This document shows positions 1 to 24,773 of a DNA stretch of 64,000 nucleotides, piece after piece; position 1 is the first letter of the stretch; each line of letters opens with the position of its first letter. A model generated the notes under the pieces. It was not told the DNA's origin. It worked only from the letters and a program-made list of their open reading frames with translations, and made no database searches. The position numbers and the translations under genes were made by a program. The stretch is from Corynebacterium mustelae (GTDB lineage: Bacteria > Actinomycetota > Actinomycetes > Mycobacteriales > Mycobacteriaceae): positions 1,116,001-1,180,000 of the forward strand of contig NZ_CP011542.1 of NCBI RefSeq assembly GCF_001020985.1. Direction: 5' to 3'.

Positions 1-666
1 CCAGAAGACGTGCTATTCGTGGTGGGGGACAACGCCAAACAAACCCTGCCAGAATCCGAAGACTTTGCATTCACCGGCGCGGCGCCAGGGGCATCGGTAT
101 GGGTTGTTCCGCAGGTGGAACAGGTTGGTGTGCCGTGGGTGGGGTGGAATACCCAATCGCCAGCTTTTGTGGAGGCGATCACCGGCGGGATAACCATGAG
201 CTTTATTGGGCATAGCGGGCCGGGGCAGTTCACGTTATTCCTGCAAAACGGTGGTTTTGAAAAGCCGCAACTGCTGTGGACTTCGGCTGATAAAACCGCC
301 CAAGACATCTATGTCGATGCCAACACACATACCCACGCAAACTGGGTGTTCACGGAGCCGGGAATTCACCAGGTAGCGGTGAAGATAACTGCCGAATTGA
401 AAGACGGTGGTGTGAAGGAGGACACAGAGATTTTAAGTTTCGCTGTGGGGGAAGAAGCGGACCTTCCTGCTGCCCAAGCGGTCACCTGGGATGGGGATTT
501 TTTGGCCAAGGGTGATGAAAGCGGCGTGGCTGCCGTAGGTACCGTCGATCGTGCGGGAGAAAACCAAGCTGTGTTGTGGGCAATCATCGCCATAGTGGCG
601 GTGCTAGTGATCGGCTCCATCATCGTGGTTATCAGGGCACTTGGTCGGCCGCGGGGTGAGAAGTGA
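1..666 (+). CDS. Surface-anchored protein of an anchored-repeat ABC transporter locus (5' partial)
   Basis: The reading frame is open from base 1, so the gene starts upstream and only about 221 C-terminal residues are visible. They contain an actinobacterial surface-anchored repeat: a VPWVGW element near the start and a HTHANWVFTEPG element about 60 residues later, which match VPWVGF and HVHTGYAFTKPG in the protein at 2333-4018. The C-terminus is a hydrophobic segment (about 25 residues of Ala/Ile/Val) followed by a short Arg/Lys tail, so the protein is probably anchored in the membrane and faces outward. Its stop overlaps the GTG start of the ABC ATPase by 4 bases, indicating one operon. The family is known to travel with metal-type ABC transporters; a role in metal or haem capture is inference. 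Confidence 0.8.
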   Translation, partial: PEDVLFVVGDNAKQTLPESEDFAFTGAAPGASVWVVPQVEQVGVPWVGWNTQSPAFVEAITGGITMSFIGHSGPGQFTLFLQNGGFEKPQLLWTSADKTAQDIYVDANTHTHANWVFTEPGIHQVAVKITAELKDGGVKEDTEILSFAVGEEADLPAAQAVTWDGDFLAKGDESGVAAVGTVDRAGENQAVLWAIIAIVAVLVIGSIIVVIRALGRPRGEK

Positions 667-17152: not shown

Positions 17153-17836
17153 ATGGTTCGGCAGCGCATGACAGGAAAACAACGCCGCGAGCAATTAATC
17201 GCCATCGGCAGGAGTATTTTCGCCGAACGCGGCTATGAAGGCACCAGTGTGGAAGAAATCGCCATGCGGGCAGGAGTATCCAAACCAGTAGTCTACGAAC
17301 ACTTCGGCGGCAAAGAAGGCCTCTATGCTGTGGTGATTGACCGTGAAATGACGAAATTGGAATCCACGATTACCCAGTCGTTGCTCACCGGGCGTTCCCG
17401 GGCGCGGATTGAACAGGCAGTTATCGCACTGCTTACTTATGTGGAAGAAGACACTGACGGCTTCCAAATCCTTGTCCGTGATACCCAACCTGGAATAGGT
17501 CGCAGTTATTCCACCCTACTGAACGACATTGTCGCCCAGGTGTCCCACATTCTTGGAAACGCGTTTACCCGAAGCGGACTCAACCCCGACACCGCAATTC
17601 TGTATGGGCAAGCACTGGTAGGGATGGTTTCCATGACTGCCCAATGGTGGTTGGATCAACGCGAAACCGAAGACAGCTTGCCCAAAGAAGTTGTCGCGGC
17701 CCATATCGTTAACCTCTGCTGGAACGGGCTCGGCGGAATGGAAGCGGAACCACAGCTATCGAACGTTGATGCGCCACCCGCTCAGCTTGGAACCCGACCG
17801 CCACAAGCAGACAGCAGCCAAGCTGATACACAGTGA
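17153..17836 (+). CDS. TetR-family transcriptional regulator upstream of mfd
   Basis: The 227-residue product has a TetR N-terminal helix-turn-helix: [20 protein letters not shown] followed by [20 protein letters not shown] (about residues 19-60). The C-terminal half is a variable ligand domain, then a Gln/Ala/Pro-rich tail. The same gene lies before mfd in mycobacteria (Rv1019-type), suggesting a conserved local regulator that may be autoregulatory. The ATG at 17153 has no strong ribosome site, so the message may be leaderless (inference). The stop is 79 bases before the mfd start. Confidence 0.9.
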
Positions 17837-17915
17837 CACCCTCATAACCGCACACCAGTCATCGGCACTACCATACTTTCAAACACCCAGCAGACTAAGG
17901 AAAACGCGCACTACC

Positions 17916-20900
17916 GTGAGCACCACAACCGCCAGCAACCAACCAGCTATGCTCGCCGGATTGCTGAAAACAGCAGCTAAAGACCCCAAGCTTAGCGGCC
18001 TTTTCACCCATCTAGGCGACCAACAGCTTCGCATCACCGCCATCGACCAAGCACGCCCTTGGACGATTGGTGCTTTAGCAAACCATGCACCAGTGTTGGT
18101 GGTAACCGCCACCGGGCGGGAAGCCGAAGATTTAACCGCCGAACTCAAAGCTATGTGGGGTAATAAGGTCGCTTGGTTTCCTGCTTGGGAGACCCTGCCA
18201 CATGAACGCCTGTCGCCTGCAGCCGACATCGCTGGTCAGCGTGCGAAAATCATCGAGTCGCTACCTCAGTTAAAAATCGTGGTCACCGCAGCCAGGGGAG
18301 TATGCCAACCGATTCTCACACACGTTATTGGCCGGAAACCACTTATGCTTTCGGTCGGAACCGATTACGACATGGCGTCGATAAGCAATGAACTCGTCTT
18401 TCGTGCCTACAAGCACGTCGACCTCGTTGCCCGACGCGGTGAATTCGCCATTCGTGGCGGTATCCTCGATATTTTCCCCACCACCAGCGACACCCCGATA
18501 CGGCTGGAATTTTGGGGCGACGAACTCACCGAAATCCGCGCTTTCAGCGTAGCCGACCAGCGTGCCCTTCCTGATTCTGAACTTCAAACTGCCGAATTAT
18601 ATACCGCCCGCGAACTACCCATCACCGACGAGATCGCACAAACCGCTCAGACTCTTGCCGCCCAACACGACGGCAATCCCACGCTCCAGGAACTTTTGAG
18701 CAAAATCGGCGATAAAATCCCCACCGACGGCATGGAAGCACTCATTCCGGTGTTGGTGGATACCCCGCTGGTCACCCTGCCGGAACTCATGCCACCTGGT
18801 ACACACGTTGTGGCGCTGCACCCAGAAAAAATCCGCACCCGGATCACCGATCTTCAGGCAACCGACGCGGAATTTTTGGCAGCAGGTTGGGAAGCCGCCG
18901 CCCTTGGTGCCGAAGGGCCAGTAGATTCGGCTCAGCTGGATCTCACTGCCTCCTCCTATCGGTCATACGAGTCGCTGATAAAAAGCGCCGACAACGCCGG
19001 GAACCCGTGGTGGACTATCACCCCGCCCGGTATGTCCGGTGACTTTGACGCTGATATTTTGCCGCTCGAATTTAACACCCCACCCACCCCTCGCGGCGAC
19101 CAGTCGGAGATCGCCGCCATGATGACCATGCTGCGCGCCCATGTCGCCGCAGGTGGAAAAGCCGCCTACATTGCCCCCGCCCACGGCGCAATAAAGCGCA
19201 TGGTTGAGCGATTCACCGAAAACGGAATCCCCACCAAGGTAGCAACACCGGGCTTAGAACCCAATGCCGGGGAAATTACCCTCTACCAGGCGCTTAGCCA
19301 CGCCGGGCTGGTATTTAACCCCAGTGGCAGTAACCAAGCAAAAACCACCAGCGCACCTTTGGTCGTCATCACCGAAACCGATCTCACCGGCAACCGGGTC
19401 GGGGATATCGCCGGTGCGAAACGTCGACAAGCAAAACGCCGCCACCGGGTGGACCCGCTAGCGCTGAAAACCGGCGACTTCGTGGTGCACGAAACCCACG
19501 GAATCGGACGGTTCCTCAAAATGACCGAACGCACCATCACCACCGGTGACGAAACTTCACGCCGCGAATACATCGTCTTGGAATACGCCCCAAGCAAACG
19601 CGGCCAACCCGCCGACCAACTCTATGTCCCCATGGACAGCCTCGACCTGTTATCGCGCTACGTTGGCGGCGAAAAACCCACCCTGTCCAAGATGGGCGGC
19701 TCTGATTGGAAAAACACCAAAAAGAAAGCCCGCGCCGCAGTCCGCGAAATCGCGAGCGAACTGGTCGAACTCTACGCCAAACGCGCCGCCGCGCCGGGGC
19801 ACGCCTTCGCACCGGACTCACCGTGGCAGCGGGAGATGGAAGACAACTTCCCTTATGTGGAAACCGAGGACCAACTGTTAGCCATTGAGGCGGTCAAAGC
19901 CGACATGGAGAAACCGACCCCCATGGACCGCGTGGTGGTGGGTGATGTTGGCTACGGCAAAACCGAAGTCGCCGTGCGCGCCGCCTTTAAAGCCGTCCAG
20001 GACGGCAAACAAGTGGCTGTTTTAGTACCCACCACCTTGCTAGCACAGCAACACCTCGCCACCTTTATCGACCGGATGGCTGGATTTCCGGTAACGATAA
20101 AAGGACTGTCCCGCTTCACCAGCACCGCGGAAGCTAAAGAAATCATTGCCGGGCTTGCCGACGGCAGCGTCGACGTGGTCATCGGCACCCACCGATTGCT
20201 GCAAACTGGAGTGCAGTGGAAAAACCTCGGCTTGGTCATCGTCGACGAGGAACAACGCTTCGGCGTGGAACATAAAGAACACATCAAAGCGATGCGCACC
20301 CACGTCGATGTGCTTACCATGTCGGCGACCCCCATTCCGCGCACCTTGGAAATGTCCATGGCGGGCATCCGGGAAATGTCGACCATCCTCACCCCACCGG
20401 AAGACCGCCACCCGATCCTCACCTTCGTTGGCGCGCAGGAAGATAAACAAATTGCAGCCGCTATTCGACGTGAGTTACTGCGTGACGGCCAAGTGTTTTT
20501 CGTACACAATAAAGTCGCCGACATAGAAAAGAAAGCCCGCCACCTTCGGGAATTGGTGCCCGAAGCGCGGATTGTTGTGGCCCACGGCCAAATGAGCGAA
20601 GAACTACTCGAACGTACCGTTCAAGGATTCTGGGACCGGGAATACGACGTATTGGTGTGCACCACAATCGTCGAAACCGGGCTCGACATCGCCAACGCCA
20701 ACACACTTATTGTGGAAAACGCCCACCACATGGGACTTTCCCAGCTGCACCAATTACGCGGCCGGGTGGGCCGGTCACGGGAACGCGGCTACGCCTACTT
20801 CCTGTACCCCAAAGACACCACGCTGACCGAAACCTCCTACGACCGGCTTGCTACCATCGCACAAAACAACGACCTCGGCGCGGGCATGGCGGTGGCCATG

Positions 20901-21587
20901 AAAGACCTCGAAATGCGTGGTGCTGGCAACGTCCTTGGCGCTGAGCAATCCGGGCATATTGCAGGTGTTGGCTTCGACCTGTATATCCGACTCGTCGGGG
21001 AAGCCGTGGAAGCATTCCGGGCGTTAGCAACCGGCCAACCTATCGACGGCACCGACAAAGGCCCCAAAGAAATCCGCATCGATTTGCCTGTCGACGCCCA
21101 CATTCCTGATACCTACATCAACGCCGAACGGCTCCGACTTGAGGTCTACCGCAAACTCGCGGCCAGCACCTCTGAAACCGATCTGCGGCTAGCCGTTGAA
21201 GAGATGGAAGACCGCTACGGGCCACTACCGGACGAAGTGCGGCGCCTGCTGTCTGTTGCGCGTCTGCGCCACCTGGCTCGCCAAGCTGGAATAAGCGACA
21301 TTGGTGTGCAAGGAACCCGGATCAAGATACACCCAGTGGAATTAGCAGACTCCAAACAAGTCCGACTCAAGCGGCTCTATCCTGGGGCGACCTACCGGGC
21401 TGCCGCCAAAGCAATCCAAGTCTCTATTCCGCGATCCGGGCGTAATGTCACCGACCCAAAACTCCGCGACGTTGCACTGGTGCAGTGGGTTGCTGATTTC
21501 CTTAGCGCCATGTTCGATGTGCCAAAAATCGATGTGCATGACGGGACACATTCAGCCGAGTCCACCGTCATCAGCGTTAGTGAATAA
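17916..21587 (+). CDS. mfd: Transcription-repair coupling factor Mfd
   Basis: Mfd is the ATP-driven translocase that removes RNA polymerase stalled at lesions and recruits UvrA. The frame stays open far upstream into the TetR gene, but the GTG at 17916 with AAGGAAA at 17898-17904 gives a normal 1223-residue protein. It has a UvrB-like N-terminal part, a CarD-like RNA polymerase-binding domain ([14 protein letters not shown], about residue 520), Walker [12 protein letters not shown] near 675, [13 protein letters not shown] near 774 and the TRG segment [15 protein letters not shown] near 1005. No frameshift is seen. Convergent with the endoglycosidase gene. Confidence 0.97.
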
Positions 21588-21723
21588 TGTCGGCAGGCTT
21601 ACTGTTACTGATGGTCGTACTCGGGAGTTGGTGGATTCACCTGAATCAGCAACCGCGTTGATCCAAACGGCTGATTGGGCAGATGTGGTGAAGAGCCTTC
21701 TTGTAACGGTGAAATTTTCTTGA
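21580..21723 (+). CDS. Possible 47-codon ORF overlapping the mfd stop
   Basis: A GTG at 21580 overlaps the mfd stop codon and opens 47 codons ending at 21723. The composition is protein-like ([12 protein letters not shown]), but there is no ribosome site beyond translational coupling and I recognise no family. It could be chance or a remnant. Confidence 0.2.
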
Positions 21724-21732
21724 ACCCACCGG

Positions 21733-23136
21733 TCACAAACGCCCAAAAAACTGAAACACGAGTGCGGCTATACCACCAAGTACCGCGGCGACGATAGCGG
21801 CGATGGCTGCATAGAGCCCGGTGAGAGACGAGCTGGGACGATCACGTGGTTCCGGTTGAGGTGGGGTAGGGGCCGAGGTGGTTTCGTTAGTGGAGCTACT
21901 GATAGTCGGGGTGGTGCTGGTTGTTGAAGTAGCCGTTGGTGTGGTTGTAGCTGTGGGCGCGGCGGGGTGTTCGCGTGCAGCTTTGACCAGTGCTTCGACG
22001 TCCTCAAATGTTAAGGCGGCATTGATGTTTTGAATGTAGGTTTGTCGTTGAGTCTCTGTGAGATTGGTCAGGTTAGTGACGGTCTGAGCGGCGGTTTCTT
22101 TCGCTGCTGCGAATTTCTTCGCTTTTAACACAGCGGTTACCCGTTTGATTACGGGGAATGTGGTCACCCGTAGGGTGGAAATATCAGGTTGGTCATAAGT
22201 CATTCCATCCCGGTCAATAGCGTAGGTCATAATTCCGCCTTTGACACCCCCTTGGAATGGCTGCCAGCCAGCGATTTTTACGGCCGCTGTTTCTTCCACC
22301 GGCCCGATTGCGCCTAAGAATCGGTTTCGATCAAATTCTTCCGGGTTTGCGTAGCTGGGGAGAAATTGGCAGCTAGAAAGATAGAAACGGTAGGTGTTCC
22401 AATAAGAATATTGGATTTCGTTTGGGTCTGTCACGCTATATGTCTGCACAAAGACATAGTTGACATACTGGGCGACTTCGTCGATGTATGCTTTCTGCGC
22501 GTTTCTATTGGTGTTGTATGTAAGTAGTGTGTTGGTGTTGGAAAACGGTCCAACCAGTTGGGTTAGGGCACGCATTGTGTTTCGAAGCACAATGCGCTGG
22601 TCGAAACTAAGGTCGCGTTCCATGTCAATATCCAACCCATCAAGCTTGTGGGGGCGCACATACTTGTCGACGAGACGTTGTGCATGGGCAGCATATTCTT
22701 CCGGGCTACTGGTGGGTTTAAGGGACGGGTCGAGGACAGCGGAGATGTCCAATGTGTAAAGAACTTTTGTTCCCCGCCGGTGGAGTTCTGGCAGATAGGT
22801 GGAAGCAAACGTTGCCCAAAATTGTTGGTCGCTTTGTTGATGATCCGGAACATGGATGAGGGATAACACGTCAATATTGTGGGGAATATCGGTCATGGCT
22901 ATCACGTTAGGGCCGACCCGGTCGTCGGGAAGCTGTTGAATTTCTTTGTCTCGCCAGGTTCGATAGTATGCCGTGACTATAGGTTCACAATCTGATCGCT
23001 CCCCGGCATCCGGGTGGAATCCCTTGTGTTCAGGCAACGGAAGTGAAGTTGGGGATGCATCAGCAGGAGCGGCTACGGCACTAAGGGCGAGGCCAGTTGC
23101 TGTGATGAGGGAACCGAGTGCGTGATGCAACCGCAT
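21733..23136 (-). CDS. Secreted GH18 endo-beta-N-acetylglucosaminidase of the EndoS/CP40 type, membrane-anchored
   Basis: The nearest known relatives, streptococcal EndoS and C. pseudotuberculosis CP40, remove N-glycans from antibodies. The 467-residue product has a signal peptide (about 1-27), then VTAYYRTWRDKEIQQ, and the GH18 motif DGLDIDME at 166-173 with catalytic Glu 173 and its partner Asp 171. Residues 343-388 form a predicted three-helix GA/FIVAR-like module, 391-435 a Thr/Pro/Ser linker and 440-464 a membrane anchor. The anchor and helical module differ from the short secreted CP40. Monocistronic. Activity on IgG is inference from family. Confidence 0.8.
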   Translation of the reverse strand: MRLHHALGSLITATGLALSAVAAPADASPTSLPLPEHKGFHPDAGERSDCEPIVTAYYRTWRDKEIQQLPDDRVGPNVIAMTDIPHNIDVLSLIHVPDHQQSDQQFWATFASTYLPELHRRGTKVLYTLDISAVLDPSLKPTSSPEEYAAHAQRLVDKYVRPHKLDGLDIDMERDLSFDQRIVLRNTMRALTQLVGPFSNTNTLLTYNTNRNAQKAYIDEVAQYVNYVFVQTYSVTDPNEIQYSYWNTYRFYLSSCQFLPSYANPEEFDRNRFLGAIGPVEETAAVKIAGWQPFQGGVKGGIMTYAIDRDGMTYDQPDISTLRVTTFPVIKRVTAVLKAKKFAAAKETAAQTVTNLTNLTETQRQTYIQNINAALTFEDVEALVKAAREHPAAPTATTTPTATSTTSTTPTISSSTNETTSAPTPPQPEPRDRPSSSLTGLYAAIAAIVAAVLGGIAALVFQFFGRL

Positions 23137-23251
23137 GACAAGACTTCCTTACCTGAGTTTTACGTTATGTTCAGGTAGTAATGTAAATGCGATTGCACGT
23201 GTTTTCAACCTGCCGCACGCAATTTAATTGCTACAGTGCGTGGCACATGGG

Positions 23252-23263
23252 GCGTCGAAAAGC
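23252..23263 (+). repeat. Copy of the recurrent 12-mer GCGTCGAMAAGC (intergenic)
   Basis: Exact copy of GCGTCGAAAAGC in the gap between the endoglycosidase gene and the amino acid permease. One of ten copies found in the window; see findings. Confidence 0.6.
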
Positions 23264-23276
23264 AACAAACAAAAGG

Positions 23277-24773
23277 TTAGAGAGTAACACTGCCGTTTTG
23301 GAGCCCGAGTACCGCGTAGCCTGCGGCAAGGACGATGATAACCACCACGCACCATTCAAACGTATTGAATATTTTTTCCTTTCGGCTTAGTCGGGTCCAC
23401 ACATATGGCACCAGACCTGGTACTACCGCCAGTGCCCCCAAAAGCACATATTTGGGGTCAGCTGCGTAAATCAGCCACAGCGAGTAGACAAAGGCGATCA
23501 ACCCCACCGCCAAGTGGCGGCGATTATCAGGTGCGGAAATCTCAGGGCCAGAATCATTGAACGCTTTTCCAGCGTGTGGGTGGGTAATTCCACGACCACG
23601 GGTGGCTAACAGAATCAGATAGAACGCTGAGAAAATATACGGCAATAGGTATAAAACCGTTGCCAACTGCACCATAGACACATAGGTAGTTTCGTTAATG
23701 TAGAAAATCACCACGCAGATTTGGATCACAATGGTAGAAATCAATTGCGCCAACCACGGAGCACCAGCAGAACTTATCGCACCGATTTTCCTGGGCAGTA
23801 ACCCATCAAATGCCATCATTGCGATCGGTTCGGCACAAAGCATCTGCCAGGATACATAAGCGCCCAGGACTGATAAACATAACCCGATGGAAATCAATGC
23901 GCCACCCCACGGTCCGACAACCGCTTCTAAGACACCCGCCATTGAATTATCCGGTAGTGCCGCGAGTTCTTCTTGGCTTAACACGCCGAAGGACAAGGTA
24001 GCGACGGTGACTAAAAGTACAAGCACGGTGGCGAAACCTACAACAGTGGCACGGCCGACATCGGAACGGGTTTCGGCCTGCTTGGAATACACCGACGCAC
24101 CTTCCACGCCAATGAATACCCACACTGTGAAAAGCATGATGCCTTGTACTTGCTCCATCACGCTAAGACCAGAACCTTCACCCCAAAAATCAAAAGTAAA
24201 GGTATTCCAACTGAAACCTAAAAACAGTACCAGGACAATAAACGCCATGATTGGCACTAATTTCGCGATCGTGGTCACCGCATTCATCACCTTGGCTTGC
24301 TTAATTCCTTTAGCCAAAACCGCGAAAATCACCCAGGTAAGCACAGAAACTGCGGCGGCCTGCTGCCACCGGTGTTCGGAATTGAAAATGGGCAAGTAGA
24401 AACCCAGCGTTGAGAAAAATAGGGTCGCGTAGCCGACTTGAGCGATAACAGAACCTAACCAATACCCCCAACCTGCGGTGAATCCAATGTAATCACCCAA
24501 GCCAGCCCGAACATAGGAATAAACGCCAGAATCTAAAAACGGCTTGCGATGCGCCAGAATCTGGAACACGAAAGCAACTGATAACATGCCAACACCGGCG
24601 ATTATCCAGCCGATAAGCATGGCACCAGGGCCAGCCACCGATGCGATGTTTTGTGGCAGGGCGAAGATTCCCGACCCAATGGTTGAGCCGATAATGATAC
24701 CTACCAGTGTCCACATCCGAACGGTGTGGCTTTTTGCCGGTGTTACTGCTATTTCAGGTGATGGTGCGTTCAC
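23277..24773 (-). CDS. lysI: APC-superfamily basic amino acid permease (LysI/ArcD-like)
   Basis: The 498-residue membrane protein has about 13 hydrophobic segments and starts the transport core with GIIIGSTIGSGIFALPQN (about residues 25-42), the unwound-helix Gly motif of basic amino acid/polyamine antiporters. It resembles C. glutamicum LysI (lysine permease) and ArcD (arginine/ornithine antiporter); the exact substrate cannot be told apart here. No arginine deiminase genes are nearby, which favours a LysI-like role. It is divergent from mazG. Confidence 0.8.
   Translation of the reverse strand: MNAPSPEIAVTPAKSHTVRMWTLVGIIIGSTIGSGIFALPQNIASVAGPGAMLIGWIIAGVGMLSVAFVFQILAHRKPFLDSGVYSYVRAGLGDYIGFTAGWGYWLGSVIAQVGYATLFFSTLGFYLPIFNSEHRWQQAAAVSVLTWVIFAVLAKGIKQAKVMNAVTTIAKLVPIMAFIVLVLFLGFSWNTFTFDFWGEGSGLSVMEQVQGIMLFTVWVFIGVEGASVYSKQAETRSDVGRATVVGFATVLVLLVTVATLSFGVLSQEELAALPDNSMAGVLEAVVGPWGGALISIGLCLSVLGAYVSWQMLCAEPIAMMAFDGLLPRKIGAISSAGAPWLAQLISTIVIQICVVIFYINETTYVSMVQLATVLYLLPYIFSAFYLILLATRGRGITHPHAGKAFNDSGPEISAPDNRRHLAVGLIAFVYSLWLIYAADPKYVLLGALAVVPGLVPYVWTRLSRKEKIFNTFEWCVVVIIVLAAGYAVLGLQNGSVTL

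Follow-up and report, generated by a model that had tools for sequence, protein, structure and literature searches.

The ndoS-like endoglycosidase of Corynebacterium mustelae carries a GA-type helical module and a probable mycomembrane anchor

The gene examined here lies in a 64,000-nucleotide stretch of Corynebacterium mustelae DNA (contig NZ_CP011542.1, positions 1,116,001 to 1,180,000; hereafter the window), where it is flanked by mfd (TIGR00580 score 1026 bits, cut-off 800) and a permease gene, with mazG beyond the permease. It encodes a protein of the EndoS type, and its features are given in Table 1. C. mustelae was first isolated from a ferret killed by sepsis, and the 2015 genome paper, which uses the gene name ndoS, already has the gene and its probable activity on immunoglobulin G (IgG) in print, terms the product 'secreted', and describes neither a helical module nor an anchor (PMC4566179). 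The open reading frame (ORF) is taken to be this ndoS because it is the sole match in the assembly (three contigs) both to PF23916 and to PF00704. With a GC content of 52.1%, compared with 50.4% for the permease gene, 57.7% for mfd and a published 52.2% for the chromosome, it is no outlier, which rules out a foreign composition. It is a real, intact-looking and already named gene, and what is new here is limited to architecture, location and evolution, namely the GA class of the module, likely display on the mycomembrane and a possible direction of evolution.

Table 1. Features of the ndoS locus (positions are those of the window)
Feature	Position	Strand	Basis or remark
ndoS-like gene, whole endo-beta-N-acetylglucosaminidase	21733..23136	minus	ORF of 467 aa, ATG start
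N-terminal signal peptide, about residues 1-28	23053..23136	minus	read by eye, cleavage site without tool prediction; pLDDT <50 at residues 1-30
Catalytic GH18 barrel with D171 and E173, residues 52-328	22153..22983	minus	
GA-type three-helix module, about residues 340-389, directly behind the barrel	21970..22119	minus	
Thr/Pro/Ser-rich linker, residues 390-437, SSS at its end	21826..21969	minus	composition; residues 397-438 pLDDT <50
C-terminal hydrophobic helix (residues 438-467), presumed to anchor in the mycomembrane	21736..21825	minus	model helix, hydropathy, tail of L073, PS2 precedent
Promoter-like TTGAAA-17-TACATT upstream of ndoS, weak	23180..23208	minus	3 sites vs shuffle mean of 1.4; no functional evidence
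Permease, basic amino acid/polyamine antiporter (context only)	23277..24773	minus	TIGR00905, 570.8 bits vs cut-off 409

The EndoS-type GH18 family PF23916 matches residues 56-303 (221 bits, cut-off 27, E = 2.4e-65). The GH18 motif LDGLDIDME occupies residues 165-173 and includes the catalytic D-x-E pair D171/E173, which aligns with D187/E189 of CU43. These two residues, along with Y57, R59, W61, D63, D166, G167 and D169, are invariant across an alignment of 20 sequences that includes the query and two near-copies. The originally predicted barrel of EndoS/CP40 type with an intact active site is supported. The segment AYYRTWRDKE (residues 56-65) had also been read as shared with antibody-deglycosylating enzymes, and it fails as their mark, since its core residues recur in Paenibacillus, Enterococcus, Microbacterium and fungal relatives. 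A full-length AlphaFold model (20 sequences, mean predicted local distance difference test, pLDDT, 81) is structurally nearer to endo-beta-N-acetylglucosaminidases (ENGases) than to chitinases. This comparison, which the original prediction had itself proposed as its test, rules out a chitinase identity.

The tree was built from 79 domain sequences; after removal by name of the duplicates L004 and L005, thinning at 90% identity left 47 rows, and L006, L042, L043, L049, L050, L052 and L071 provided no usable ORF. CP40-like Corynebacterium enzymes group with the C. mustelae enzyme in a clade of six rows (99/98). The equivalog model NF049901 (EndglycodaseB1) scores 149.7 bits, below the required 900. 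The protein searches scored only the candidates with the most shared words and no CP40 was recognised among those listed, so absences in them weigh little. Judged by its computed fold, active site and clade, the enzyme is most probably an ENGase of the corynebacterial CP40/CU43 branch of EndoS-like GH18.

Directly behind the barrel is a GA-type three-helix bundle. The Pfam GA family (PF01468) matches residues 340-388 (35.3 bits, cut-off 24), and the full model has helices at 328-337, 339-354, 361-373 and 377-389, the last three being the module, with pLDDT 95-98 from 331 to 390; modelled alone with four sequences, the module has a mean pLDDT of 76.5. It had been described as GA/FIVAR-like: the GA half of this description stands, while FIVAR (PF07554, cut-off 29.2 bits) is ruled out, being absent from the matches at E up to 1 in a Pfam scan of the 467-aa protein. 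A fold search with the full model barely tests the module, and Foldseek with the module alone returned no match at E <0.001. A sequence search with the module region found only the module itself and P0002.

Two accounts of what the module may do can be weighed. One is that it binds a ligand (albumin, fibronectin or the IgG Fc) and so tethers the enzyme to plasma proteins of the host, as might be suggested by the GA match above cut-off and by an Embp FG-repeat as the best structural match; recombinant FG-repeats bind fibronectin FN12 (PMC7587433), but each FG-repeat there has two bundles whereas the C. mustelae protein has a single copy. A search with a ten-sequence GA profile gave 122 matches, of which 60 were listed. 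Among those listed, protein A entries come at the top, the lowest E-values belong to multi-repeat chains, and single protein A domains reach E = 1.6e-5 and score like Embp (27.8 vs 26.4 bits, over positions 1-32 only). When the C. mustelae module alone was the query, helices 1-2 aligned with protein A domains, natural single domains having E-values of 0.39-1.2. Fc binding in the manner of protein A is nevertheless disfavoured, as the matches span only the first two helices and the protein A B-domain model (PF02216) scores 14.1 bits, below its cut-off of 27. Taking domain B to have twelve Fc contacts, a by-eye comparison finds four of them retained, and in helix 1 only one, at its start. Albumin binding is unsupported: position 21, in helix 2, is Thr in a by-eye alignment, where PMC3962080 gives Tyr or Phe for albumin-binding domains, and the sole albumin-binding chain among the matches listed (9bb1) scores 23.5 bits over positions 28-46, compared with 36.2 for the best EbhA domain. 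Overall, we consider a docking function improbable.

The other account, which is a serious possibility although we would not bet on it, is that the module is the counterpart of the 3HB-1 bundle of EndoE: it would have been inherited together with the barrel as a structural collar and would since have drifted toward a GA appearance. The two bundles share their position directly behind the barrel, the alignment of the full model with EndoE (51..388) extends beyond the barrel, and EndoE 3HB-1 packs on GH18 over about 972 Å2 (PMC8894350). A profile of P0001 and P0003 compared with the corresponding stretches of 13 relatives, barrel tail included, gave 91% with none of 200 shuffles equal, but once the barrel tail was trimmed the value fell to 1.7-2.2%, with 12 or 3 of 200 shuffles equal, so that the trimmed match does not stand clearly above shuffles. 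Pfam GA was also found at E up to 1 in none of the nine such relatives scanned. Separately, the comparison made for the helical stretch of P0005 did not establish it as GA.

Behind the module come a linker and a hydrophobic tail. The linker (15 T, 10 P and 9 S in 48 residues) is disordered in the model at 397-438, and the final helix spans residues 439-466 of 467, with pLDDT of about 69-77 and a Kyte-Doolittle maximum of 2.64. The Thr/Pro linker and hydrophobic C-terminal anchor of the original prediction are thus both present, although the membrane in question is probably the outer mycomembrane. Corynebacteria are diderm. As in the S-layer protein PS2 of C. glutamicum, a hydrophobic C-terminal helix is the last element; in PS2 the last ~27 residues hold the protein in the outer mycomembrane, and without them it is mainly released (PMC12337289). 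By arithmetic, the 48-residue linker would reach at most about 17 nm, while the C. glutamicum envelope is about 42 nm thick (PMC12021427), so that with a plasma-membrane anchor the enzyme would lie beneath the mycomembrane. From the PS2 precedent and the reach of the linker, we infer that the C-terminal helix probably anchors the enzyme in the outer mycomembrane. A second C. mustelae ORF, L073 (G000:C1, about 2098740; 286 residues), has a signal-peptide-like stretch, Pro-rich repeats of PNDPAP type and an SSS-hydrophobic tail that resembles that of the ndoS product (E = 0.04), perhaps a common surface anchor.

Several observations weigh against a surface-displayed enzyme of this branch. L073 was the only other ORF of the genome to match the tail, and weakly; the confidence of the anchor helix in the model is moderate; the helix could be removed by cleavage or be lodged in the plasma membrane; the product is described as secreted in the genome paper; and P0005, a member of the CP40/CU43 clade, is a long branch whose placement was flagged as unsure by the tree program. 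An enzyme whose tail is processed, or lodged in the plasma membrane, and which acts freely secreted like CP40, would agree with that published wording and with the absence of LPXTG from the 467-aa sequence. We regard it as unlikely, given the PS2 precedent and given that a plasma-membrane anchor would leave the enzyme under the mycomembrane.

We favour, with moderate confidence, a CP40/CU43-branch ENGase displayed on the cell surface. The signal peptide would export the enzyme, the C-terminal helix would lodge in the outer mycomembrane in the manner of PS2, the Thr/Pro linker would keep the enzyme just above that membrane, and the GA module may serve as a rigid collar directly behind the barrel. 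Its substrate is probably the antibody glycan, judging from its nearest characterised relatives: CP40 acts on IgG (its annotation as a protease has been questioned, and the paper on CP40 lists the C. mustelae genome among the sources of that doubt), and CU43 was crystallised with IgG1 Fc, according to the PDB title. Removal of these sugars may then protect the cell. The same enzyme might instead be a nutrient-scavenging or broad endoglycosidase that acts on mucosal glycoproteins rather than IgG, its anchor keeping the freed sugars near the cell. This would suit the occurrence of 46 of the 47 loci in named genomes outside Corynebacterium (Enterococcus, Paenibacillus, Listeria, Bifidobacterium, Lactobacillaceae, Brachybacterium and others), the LPXTG ends read by eye at nine of the 45 of these 47 loci that were covered (six Listeria, three Lacticaseibacillus), the MucBP domain above cut-off in two of ten scanned, and the action of EndoE on both high-mannose and complex glycans. 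The IgG link of CP40 and CU43 argues against it, as do the immediate neighbours (mfd, the antiporter and mazG), among which there are no glycan-uptake genes, and we think it rather unlikely.

The IgG endoglycosidases best known are mostly freely secreted, and they serve as drugs or tools. If the C. mustelae enzyme is displayed on the mycomembrane, it would deglycosylate mainly antibodies that have already reached the cell. That would be another way of evading antibodies, and CP40/CU43 could then descend, by truncation, from a surface enzyme. Taken furthest, and only as a long shot, this would be a self-cleaning surface: a mycomembrane-fixed enzyme with a GA module that either orients the barrel or holds on to a plasma or matrix protein of the host (more likely fibronectin than albumin), with the result that cell-bound antibodies are stripped first, the free CP40/CU43 forms having arisen by loss of module and anchor.

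The gene neighbourhood provides a relative order of events. In 11 of the 36 congeners sampled, less than 1 kb separates the mfd and mazG matches, and the permease is at another place or was not found; among 24 genomes from other genera of the order, 12 have the two matches within 3 kb. The mfd-mazG order is probably the older state. The permease adjoins mazG in 15 of the 36 congeners, and none of these 15 has PF23916; the other ten have different or split arrangements. The locus sequences of 14 of the 15 show the order mfd, slot, permease, mazG in 13 and a contig end before mfd in one; the last of the 15 has 5.7 kb between mfd and the permease. The slot, on which mfd and the permease gene converge (21588-23276 in the window), measures 6 to 3,676 bases between match ends across the 13 loci (L054-L067), and its gene content differs among them (nadA-, feoB- and dehydrogenase-like by reading of translations). 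PF23916 is found in six of 242 genomes of the genus and adjoins mfd in two of those six, a patchy distribution that agrees with the lineage-specific occurrence suspected earlier. These two are C. mustelae and L007, with ndoS in the slot, while the other four have no gene of the block within at least 8.5 kb on either side. The original prediction had ndoS and the permease interrupting the mfd-mazG order together: the old order and the position of both genes within it agree with this, but joint insertion is not supported, because PF23916 is absent from all 15 congeners in which the permease adjoins mazG. The gene orders instead point to the permease as an older insertion and to ndoS as a later one into a variable slot. 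The mfd ORF as listed (17691-21587 in the window) has a TTG start inside a TetR gene; its true start is probably downstream, because the matches of relatives mostly begin around residue 85 and the L007 mfd ORF has 1223 aa.

Surface attachment is not rare among the relatives, since P0005 has a tail of SSSS and a hydrophobic stretch similar to that of the C. mustelae enzyme, P0003 ends in LPKTG, P0004 has PF04122 repeats (which we take to be a cell-wall-binding family) and LPXTG ends occur at the nine loci mentioned above. The module and anchor had been viewed as additions to a short secreted form, a view not upheld, as the relatives just outside the CP40 group have C-terminal extensions and surface anchors, which makes loss in CP40 no worse an explanation than gain, and perhaps a better one. 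By parsimony, applied by eye, the short CP40 forms may have lost surface attachment. In another Corynebacterium genome (G039), an ndoS relative (L071, 8594-9751) has an in-frame TAG and is 37% identical to P0005, itself intact. Two further Corynebacterium genomes (G191 and G192) contain long GA-repeat frames (L074, L075, L082 and L083), with at least 26 matches each, resembling Ebh-type adhesins.

Among known systems, CP40 of C. pseudotuberculosis and CU43 of C. ulcerans have barrel, active site and clade in common with the C. mustelae enzyme but are 39-43% identical to it and lie at a different locus. The C. mustelae enzyme, with its module, linker and helix, departs from the short form without C-terminal module and anchor that would be expected of the CP40/CU43 branch; the CP40-like L002 and L003 (the only two read to the end) lack the helical module, the T/P linker and the hydrophobic tail. 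EndoS and EndoS2 of Streptococcus pyogenes are far longer (PDB chains of 802-960 residues, a 1191-residue fusion aside, vs 467), and only the barrel aligns. EndoE of Enterococcus faecalis also has a three-helix bundle directly behind its GH18 barrel, but has two bundles and a GH20 domain and is 29% identical. PS2 shares the hydrophobic C-terminal helix as an anchor but differs from the C. mustelae enzyme in its coiled coil and in assembling into a lattice. The GA-type modules of Ebh and Embp are among the closest known counterparts of the module, and the metagenomic P0003 (GH18, GA and LPKTG) is likewise surface-anchored, with 48% identity in the barrel and a module homologous on its own to that of C. 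mustelae (94.7%, none of 150 shuffles), differing in its sortase-type LPXTG anchor and in a second GA-like stretch seen by eye.
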